Made by a program: the position numbers and the translations under genes. A stretch of 64,000 nt of DNA from an uncultured Flavobacteriaceae bacterium (GTDB lineage: Bacteria > Bacteroidota > Bacteroidia > Flavobacteriales > Flavobacteriaceae). Location: positions 62,001 to 126,000 of the forward strand of contig CANMSN010000003.1 in assembly GCA_947500585.1 (NCBI GenBank), given 5' to 3'. Shown here one piece after another: positions 61,598 through 63,901 of the stretch. The notes under the pieces are model-generated. The model saw only the letters and a list, made by a program, of their open reading frames with translations. It ran no database searches and was not told the origin of the DNA. Numbering within the stretch: the stretch's first letter is position 1; each line of letters opens with the position of its first letter.

Positions 61598-62479
61598 CTA
61601 TTTAAAAGTCCAAGCAACAATTCTTGAAATTTTATTTCCTTGCCCCATATTTATAGTTTTAACATCAGTAGCTCCCAATTTTTTCAAAGACAAATACATA
61701 CCTTTTACTAAATCTTTTTTAGAAACTAATGTTGTAAACCAAATACATTGATTTTTAAACAAAGAACTTTCATAAAGATAATTATGAATAAATGATTTTT
61801 CGCCGCCTTTATACCACAATTCGCTTTCTGAACCAGCAAAATTTCTAACAATTTCATCTACGCCCTTATTCAATCCTTTTAATTTTCTAGTTGTGGCTTT
61901 TATAGCGTCTTGTTCAGACTTAAAAAATGGTGGATTACATATGGATACAGAAAATTTATCATCCGCTTTTAAAACACCTTTTAAAATCTGAGAACTATCT
62001 TTTTGTAGCCTTAAAGAAATATAATAGCTTAACTCATTTTTATTAATAATTTTTTGAGCATATTGAATCGATTTCTTATCAATATCAGTAGCTACAAACT
62101 TCCAATTATATTCTGAATGTCCTAAAACAGGATAAATACAACTTGCTCCTGTTCCAATATCTAAAACCTTAATATACTCGTTTATTTTTGAAGCTTTTAA
62201 TAAATCGGAAATATGATGAATATAATCTACACGCCCAGGAATTGGTGGACATAAATTTGTATCGGGAAATTCCCAAAAATCAATTTTATAATACTTTTTA
62301 AGTAATGCCGCGTTTAGAGCTTTTATAGCTTTTGGGTTTGCGAAGTCTAGGGTTTTATTATCATATTTATTTTCAAATACAAAAGGCGTTAAATCAGGAT
62401 AAGTTTTACATAAAGCTTCTAAATCATATCCTGATTTATGTTTATTTTTTGGGTGGAAATTTGGTTTACTTTTGATAAT
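61598..62479 (-). CDS. rlmF: 23S rRNA (adenine(1618)-N6)-methyltransferase, without a standard start codon
   Basis: The frame is open without interruption from the TAA at 62491-62489 to the TAG at 61600-61598, and encodes the whole enzyme: FHPKNKHKSGYDLEALCK near the N-terminus, WEFPDTNLCPPIPGRVDYIHH, SAM motif I VLDIGTGASCIYPVLG, the N6-adenine motif NPPFF and SELWYKGGEKSFI. There is no ATG, GTG or TTG before a TTG at 61873, which is far inside the gene after NPPFF. The only plausible starts are ATA (62482), ATT (62479) or ATC (62476), just before KSKPNFHPKN; ATT is used here, giving 293 aa. It follows the MATE gene in the same frame, separated by TAA-TAT-TAA, so re-initiation is conceivable. 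Role: methylates A1618 of 23S rRNA. Confidence 0.85.
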   Translation of the reverse strand: MIKSKPNFHPKNKHKSGYDLEALCKTYPDLTPFVFENKYDNKTLDFANPKAIKALNAALLKKYYKIDFWEFPDTNLCPPIPGRVDYIHHISDLLKASKINEYIKVLDIGTGASCIYPVLGHSEYNWKFVATDIDKKSIQYAQKIINKNELSYYISLRLQKDSSQILKGVLKADDKFSVSICNPPFFKSEQDAIKATTRKLKGLNKGVDEIVRNFAGSESELWYKGGEKSFIHNYLYESSLFKNQCIWFTTLVSKKDLVKGMYLSLKKLGATDVKTINMGQGNKISRIVAWTFK

Positions 62480-62494
62480 TATAAGCTTTTAATA

Positions 62495-63901
62495 TTAAAC
62501 CAGTGTTTTTTTCCAATACCCTTTTTTAAACCAAATAATAGCTGTAATAGCTATTAAAATCTCTGCTAAAGTAATAGCCCAAAACACTCCTGAAGGACCA
62601 AAATCTAGAGTAATAGCCATAAAGTAAGCAAATGGTAATTGCAATAGCCAAAAACATACAAAGTTTATATATGTTGGTGTTTTTGTATCTCCTGCACCAT
62701 TAAACGCATTAATAACAACCATACCATAACCGTAAAAAATATAACCTGCTGCTATAACACGTAAACACAAACTACCATATTTTACAACGTCTGGAGTTTC
62801 ATTAAACAACAAAACAATTTGTGGCGCAAACACTAAATAAATTATAGAAACTAAGCCCATAAAAAGAGCACTATATTTACCCGTTTTCCAAACAGATTGT
62901 TCTGCACGTTTTGGTTTTTTAGCACCTAAATTTTGACCTACTAAAGTAGCAGCTGCATTACTCATACCCCAAGCTGGCATTAGTGTAAACATCATTACAC
63001 GAATAGCAATGGTATAGCCTGCCAATACTTCACTACCAAATTCGCTCATAATACGCATTAAAAACACCCAGCTAGAAGTCCCTATTAAAAACTGACCAAT
63101 TCCACCTAATGATACTTTAATTAAATTAAGCATCACACCTACTCGCAAGACTAAATCTTTTATCCCAACTTTAATTTTACTGTACCCATAAAATAAAATA
63201 GCTAATTGAAATAACACTGCAGTTCCTCTACCTATAGTAGTTGCTATAGCTGCACCTTCAACGCCAAAAGCGGGAACTGGCCCAAAACCAAAAATAAATA
63301 TCGGATCAAGTATAATATTCAATCCGTTAGACAAAACTAATGTCCACATAGCCACAGAAGCATCACCTGCACCTCTAAAAATTGCATTGATTAAAAACAA
63401 AAGCATTATGGTAATATTGCCGCCTAAAAGCACTTTTGTATAACCATAACCTTCTTCTATTAAATCTGCCTCTGCGCCCATTAAACCTAATATTTCTCTA
63501 GGATAAATAACACCTATTGCACTAATTATAGCAGCAACAAATACCCCGAGGAATATAACTTGTACTGCTGCATTTGAAGCGCCTTTTAAATCTTTCTCTC
63601 CCACGCGTCTTGCAACTATTGCAGTAGCTGCCATACTTAAACCTATTGCTACAGCATAAACCAATGTAATTACAGATTCTGTTAAACCAATAGTAGCTAC
63701 AGCATTTACACTTACTTGCGATACGTACATAATATCAACGAGTGCAAAAATAGATTCCATGAGCATTTCAAGAATCATAGGAATAGAAAGCATAAAAACC
63801 GCACGCCGAATACTACCAGATGTAAATTCTTGTTCTTTACCAGAAACAGCTACTTTAAAGTATTGAAAAAATTGTTTTATTGAAATTTTATTTGATTGCA
63901 T
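62495..63901 (-). CDS. MATE-family efflux transporter
   Basis: 468 aa with twelve membrane helices in two MatE repeats. SGSIRRAVFMLSIPMILEMLMESIFALVDIMYVS is the N-terminal helix with the conserved aspartate, VARRVGEKDLKGASNAAVQVIF is the loop signature, and the second half repeats it with AAATLVGQNLGAKKPKRAEQSVW. Role: Na+- or H+-driven export of organic cations or drugs across the inner membrane. Upstream of rlmF on the same strand, with 15 bp between. A TACATTTG box at 63931-63938 (minus) lies about 30 bp before the ATG. Confidence 0.95.
   Translation of the reverse strand: MQSNKISIKQFFQYFKVAVSGKEQEFTSGSIRRAVFMLSIPMILEMLMESIFALVDIMYVSQVSVNAVATIGLTESVITLVYAVAIGLSMAATAIVARRVGEKDLKGASNAAVQVIFLGVFVAAIISAIGVIYPREILGLMGAEADLIEEGYGYTKVLLGGNITIMLLFLINAIFRGAGDASVAMWTLVLSNGLNIILDPIFIFGFGPVPAFGVEGAAIATTIGRGTAVLFQLAILFYGYSKIKVGIKDLVLRVGVMLNLIKVSLGGIGQFLIGTSSWVFLMRIMSEFGSEVLAGYTIAIRVMMFTLMPAWGMSNAAATLVGQNLGAKKPKRAEQSVWKTGKYSALFMGLVSIIYLVFAPQIVLLFNETPDVVKYGSLCLRVIAAGYIFYGYGMVVINAFNGAGDTKTPTYINFVCFWLLQLPFAYFMAITLDFGPSGVFWAITLAEILIAITAIIWFKKGYWKKTLV

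Follow-up and report, generated by a model that had tools for sequence, protein, structure and literature searches.

A conserved AUC/AUU codon as the probable translation start of rlmF in a clade of Flavobacteriaceae

An rlmF gene without a standard start codon

The window analyzed here is the whole 64,000-nucleotide stretch of contig CANMSN010000003.1 (positions 62,001 to 126,000, forward strand; assembly GCA_947500585.1) of an uncultured Flavobacteriaceae bacterium. On its minus strand lies rlmF, whose product matches the RlmF equivalog NCBIfam NF008725 at 394.5 bits (cut-off 302; profile positions 1-293 of 293) and Pfam PF05971 at 349.9 bits. The rlmF frame (61598-62488) is open over 296 codons, 3′ of a TAA-TAT-TAA (62497-62489) that includes the stop of an upstream MATE efflux transporter gene, and its first ATG, GTG or TTG codon is a TTG located 205 codons past the upstream stop. 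Most likely, as argued below from comparative evidence, translation starts at the ATC at 62476-62474, giving a 292-residue RlmF. Counted from this ATC, the TTG is codon 202 and the first ATG codon 260, while the S-adenosylmethionine (SAM) motif VLDIGTG (codon 104) and the NPPF motif (codon 181), both intact, precede any standard start. A preliminary description of this DNA had noted that the frame is intact from the MATE stop and encodes all conserved motifs but has no standard start before residue 200, and this was confirmed. The features of the locus are as follows.

62498..63901, minus strand: MATE efflux transporter gene, the upstream neighbour (profile matches)
62489..62497, minus strand: TAA-TAT-TAA, in which the MATE stop is followed by another stop in frame, leaving 4 codons before the ATC
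62477..62490, minus strand: upstream region from -14 to -1, with A at -14 to -11, -6, -4 and -3, resembling a flavobacterial initiation region
62474..62476, minus strand: proposed start codon ATC (AUC), with 39 ATC, 7 ATT and 0 ATA in 46 loci and a peak of the initiation-region score
61598..62476, minus strand: rlmF coding sequence from the proposed ATC start, 292 codons plus the stop TAG (NF008725 match; ATC/ATT aligned in 46 loci)
62129..62167, minus strand: SAM-binding motif VLDIGTGASCIYP, 5′ of every standard start
61922..61939, minus strand: catalytic motif CNPPFF, 5′ of every standard start

The MATE gene is in the same reading frame as rlmF and ends at 62495. A gene span reaching to 62497, as first proposed for rlmF, thus includes the MATE stop, and rlmF is best taken as 61598-62476. 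We rejected the downstream TTG and ATG as start codons because either would remove both catalytic motifs.

To place the missing start in context, we measured the offset of the first standard start in 409 non-overlapping stop-to-stop open reading frames (ORFs) of ≥100 codons, not all of them necessarily genes, from 464 kb of this genome (the 64-kb window and 400 kb of contig C1). The median offset was 4 codons and the 99th percentile 40; rlmF, at 205, was the most extreme, followed by an ORF at 59, which argues that its lack of a standard start is not due to chance.

A conserved ATC/ATT triplet in relatives

We then surveyed rlmF across relatives. The gene was found in 181 of 397 genomes of the family (E ≤ 1e-40). 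We sampled loci from 100 of these, to which we added 6 belonging to other families in the order and the best 80 of 582 relatives from a scan of named genomes; the 81 family genomes outside the sample were mostly among the less similar. Of the resulting 186 rlmF loci, 30 duplicated another from the match onward and were removed, leaving 156 distinct ones. In 46 of these 156, the window included, the stretch from the upstream stop to the conserved F-H-x-x-N motif contained no in-frame ATG, GTG or TTG. These 46 loci carried ATC (39) or ATT (7), and never ATA, at the matching site, which lies ten codons ahead of the anchor Asn; in L192, shorter by two codons in this stretch, the distance is eight and the ATC persists (counted at its nearer position). 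For 11 of the 46, the gap between the stop and the ATC/ATT was only 1 or 2 codons, so that little else could serve as a start. The 46 loci include Algibacter luteus, A. lectus, A. miyuki, Flavivirga amylovorans, F. jejuensis, Tamlana agarivorans I2M19, Mariniflexile fucanivorans, Gaetbulibacter saemankumensis and Bizionia arctica, and the 27 that came from genome-collection searches span 19 genus codes (manual count). The preliminary description had considered a rare, infC-like start, and this part of it is upheld by the conservation of AUC/AUU; the conserved codon is, however, the ATC at 62476-62474 and not the ATA at 62482-62480 that it had pointed to. Neither this ATA nor the adjoining ATT is conserved, unlike the ATC, and both were rejected as starts.

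Because a conserved isoleucine could produce a similar pattern, we compared the site with the isoleucine codons found within the gene bodies of these 46 loci, which comprised 622 ATT (65%), 243 ATA (25%) and 95 ATC (10%). A naive binomial comparison of the 39/7/0 pattern with this usage gives 1.7e-32, a value that is overstated since the rows are related. A FastTree phylogeny of 155 rows recovered a 63-row clade with 99% local support, in which 56 rows carried ATC/ATT and 7 did not (manual count); in a rooted 59-row version of this clade, 55 rows kept ATC/ATT (47 ATC, 8 ATT) and 4 did not. An aligned ATG elsewhere in relatives had been put forward as grounds for giving up the unusual start. 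Few relatives fit this: each of the 4 rows without ATC/ATT carries an ATG within codons -10 to -7, against 55 of the 59 rows that retain the ATC/ATT, and only 2 of the 55 have a standard start between -12 and -4. Across the 59 rows, the start column underwent 6 changes between ATC and ATT, while the third base at 11 other conserved isoleucine columns changed 9-19 times each, none of these columns being dominated by ATC and all containing ATA. What is conserved at the site is thus the codon and not an isoleucine, since its composition (39 ATC, 7 ATT, no ATA) differs from the usage of the gene bodies (65% ATT, 25% ATA, 10% ATC).

The 4 clade members bearing ATG instead of ATC/ATT are L052, L005, L034 and L154; in L052, the ATG occupies precisely the position where its kin have ATC. 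A further 17 distinct loci had ATC/ATT ten codons before the anchor along with some standard start: 11 belong to the clade and are counted in the clade figures above, and 6 lie outside it with an ATG, GTG or TTG start elsewhere, their ATC/ATT triplet probably being there by chance. L032, L150 and L160 retain ATT/ATC with an in-frame GTG or ATG shortly before it, and are possibly on their way back to a standard start.

Weak starts were also seen beyond the clade. In sister groups that include Lacinutrix, Oceanihabitans, Bizionia and a Gaetbulibacter, rlmF starts with a TTG immediately before the conserved His (TTG CAT AAA ...), for example in L064, L071, L073, L080, L190, L195, L199 and L218. 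Overall, in 32 of the 92 rows outside the 63-row clade, the N-terminal region contained TTG/GTG but lacked ATG (manual count from the tree), consistent with rlmF being held low. The rlmF of Lacinutrix algicola AKS293 (L225) has in-frame stops at its N-terminus and a TTG CAT in another frame, likely a frameshift or sequencing error; with its broken N-terminal frame, this locus was excluded from the 46 and from the tree.

An initiation region in register with the ATC

Initiation in Flavobacterium johnsoniae is favored by an A at -3, at -6 and in the region of -14 to -11 (PMC6847099). At the 46 sites, A was present at -12, -11 and -3 in 37, 38 and 32 loci, respectively, compared to counts of 146, 149 and 127 among 267 ORFs of this genome that begin with ATG, and a purine stood at -3 in 44 of 46 vs. 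156 of 267. The 80 bases around the site were also less structured, with a median minimum free energy of -2.85 vs. -6.10 for ATG ORFs, and the mean unpaired probability from -20 to +20 was 0.71 for the ATC/ATT set vs. 0.56. When a matrix built from the ATG ORFs was slid along these loci, the score was highest at shift 0 (1.14), followed by shifts +1 (1.02) and -1 (0.79), with all other shifts tried at ≤0.34. The sequence signature of flavobacterial initiation lines up with the ATC.

The start of infC in the same bacteria

Natural starts other than ATG, GTG and TTG are rare in bacteria. A rare well-characterized gene with a non-canonical start is infC, whose start makes initiation factor 3 (IF3) autoregulatory and is ATT in Escherichia coli and ATC in Streptomyces (PMC5472188). 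We fetched 30 infC loci (L118-L147, from Flavobacteriales relatives and this genome; 36 of 37 genomes matched) and located the start in 28, reading those of L146 and L140 by eye from the printed sequence: 24 started with ATA, followed by GCN, 2 with ATC and 2 with CTG, and none of the 28 contained ATG, GTG or TTG in its first 25 codons. The genome's own infC (L131, G000:C21) starts with ATA. By analogy, IF3-sensitive starts are in use in this bacterial group, since the infC of relatives starts mostly with ATA.

Alternative explanations

Several other readings of the missing start were weighed. The one that survives best, although we regard it as very improbable, is that ribosomes finishing MATE re-initiate on rlmF with no true start codon, as the preliminary description had suggested. 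In the window, 18 nt separate the MATE stop and the ATC, and a MATE match ends within 88 nt in 12 of the 57 distinct loci that carry ATC/ATT at this position (window included). However, 33 of the 57 keep the ATC/ATT with no MATE homologue detected by tblastn within 1.4 kb upstream, and 12 more keep it with the MATE match ending 433-1079 nt away. Because of these 33 loci, MATE re-initiation does not work as the general cause, although such coupling could raise the use of AUC where MATE adjoins rlmF.

A dedicated initiator-type tRNA with anticodon GAU, which would read AUC and AUU and account for ATC/ATT without ATA, appears slightly less probable again. The pattern at the site (C over U, never A) agrees with decoding by G34, and an initiator tRNA with GAU paired well with AUU and AUC in vitro (PMC10158994). 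A search of this genome for the exact initiator anticodon arm GGGCTNNNAACCC, not covering variant arms, found it in only one tRNA, with CAT, the other match to the pattern being no tRNA. RF00005 gave 37 tRNA genes, and among the 30 loci analyzed with ARAGORN the only Ile(GAT) gene seen adjoins a tRNA-Ala, as an ordinary elongator does. A second tRNA with an initiator arm was thus rejected, as no further tRNA with the exact arm was found in this genome.

Fusion to a standard start in another upstream frame through programmed frameshifting is, in our view, very improbable: an ATG-started frame overlaps the site in 5 of the 46 loci, but the remaining 41 have none (this count considered ATG starts in other frames and not GTG or TTG), and only 5 of the 46 have an ATG, whatever its frame, in the 40 nt upstream.

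Finally, a recent loss of the start, whether by a point mutation such as the ATG-to-ATA change proposed earlier, by decay into a pseudogene or through a base-calling or sequencing error, has nothing in its favor beyond the absent start itself and the stops near the N-terminus of L225, and can practically be dismissed, given that the same absence is common to 46 distinct loci in relatives of many genera, with open frames, and that the ratio of non-synonymous to synonymous substitution rates (dN/dS) of about 0.10-0.16 in nine pairs makes decay unlikely.

A weak start that may restrain RlmF

Taken together, single-position codon conservation, a well-formed flavobacterial initiation region and the lack of a usable standard start point to translation from the ATC/ATT. 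We therefore consider it highly probable that in this bacterium and in a large clade of relatives (Algibacter, Flaviramulus, Flavivirga, Tamlana, Mariniflexile, Gaetbulibacter and others) translation of rlmF begins at AUC, or in some members at AUU, a weak start that would use the ordinary formylmethionyl-tRNA (fMet-tRNA), be disfavored by IF3, and hold RlmF low. In this mechanism, fMet-tRNA (anticodon CAU) would read AUC/AUU with a third-base mismatch, and initiation would be weak and disfavored by IF3 as it is for infC; in vitro, weak third pairs are disfavored by IF3 at initiation (PMC10158994). The unusually open, A-rich leader would compensate partly for the weak codon. RlmF, the methyltransferase of 23S rRNA A1618, would be held low, and its level would rise whenever IF3 runs short in relation to the 30S subunits engaged in initiation. 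Since AUC/AUU is kept across many genera, the weak start is probably maintained on purpose, to restrain the enzyme. Surplus RlmF is said, in work by Sergiev from 2008, to be harmful, and such harm may be one reason for holding rlmF low. The overexpression column in the portion of PMC7056703 covered here concerns a reporter and has no bearing on RlmF dosage.

Several observations weigh against this interpretation. The rows are related, so that raw P values are inflated, and an independent-pairs test offered only 2 pairs on supported branches, both in the expected direction and too few for significance. The change to ATG in 4 of 59 clade rows indicates that a strong start is tolerated. ATA is absent from the 46 loci, although it would be expected, as in infC, if weakness alone mattered, so that weakness by itself does not account for the pattern. 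Within the initiation region, the enrichment of A at -13 and -4 was not significant (p 0.08 and 0.05), the score at shift +1 came close to that at shift 0, and the background consisted of predicted ATG starts from one genome whereas the ATC/ATT set came from many, with base composition between genomes uncontrolled. The AUC/AUU start itself is proposed from sequence comparison, and we infer IF3 control and low expression of rlmF.

More speculatively, and with a good deal of doubt, AUC/AUU in rlmF and AUA in infC may form an IF3-read code in bacteria that do not rely on Shine-Dalgarno pairing, in which the third base would be a gene-specific setting under selection and would tie a modification enzyme of large-subunit rRNA to the initiation capacity of the cell and to IF3 supply. 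In practical terms, gene callers restricted to ATG, GTG and TTG would be expected to lose or truncate rlmF across the whole clade. Among the matches listed in the open-licence literature (closed-licence papers and preprints were not covered), no title or abstract opening reported an AUC-started rlmF.

Comparison with known systems

The window RlmF belongs to the same equivalog family as E. coli RlmF (YbiN), the 23S rRNA m6A1618 methyltransferase, whose gene has a normal start. Its upstream region is like the Kozak-like regions of F. johnsoniae, with A at -3, -6 and -14 to -11 and no Shine-Dalgarno sequence; the available part of that study contains none of the terms "infC", "AUU", "non-AUG" or "GUG", AUC not having been looked up there (PMC6847099).

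Streptomyces sigR offers a parallel outside infC, as a gene with a non-canonical start that annotation had misplaced, but its start is GTC and not ATC, it encodes a sigma factor and not an rRNA methyltransferase, and its repression by IF3 has been shown (PMC5472188), whereas for rlmF such repression is only suggested by analogy. The likeness to infC lies in a conserved near-cognate codon where ATG is expected, in a gene of the translation apparatus, with no in-frame standard start. The two differ in that rlmF uses AUC/AUU and not AUA in 46 loci, and in that IF3 autoregulation is known for infC (PMC5472188) while IF3 would act on rlmF in trans. With 46 of 156 loci lacking a standard start ahead of the conserved N-terminus, rlmF would be a further gene of the infC/sigR kind with a conserved non-canonical start, and one spread over 19 genus codes would allow comparisons of the extent to which IF3 discrimination serves regulation in a phylum without Shine-Dalgarno pairing.
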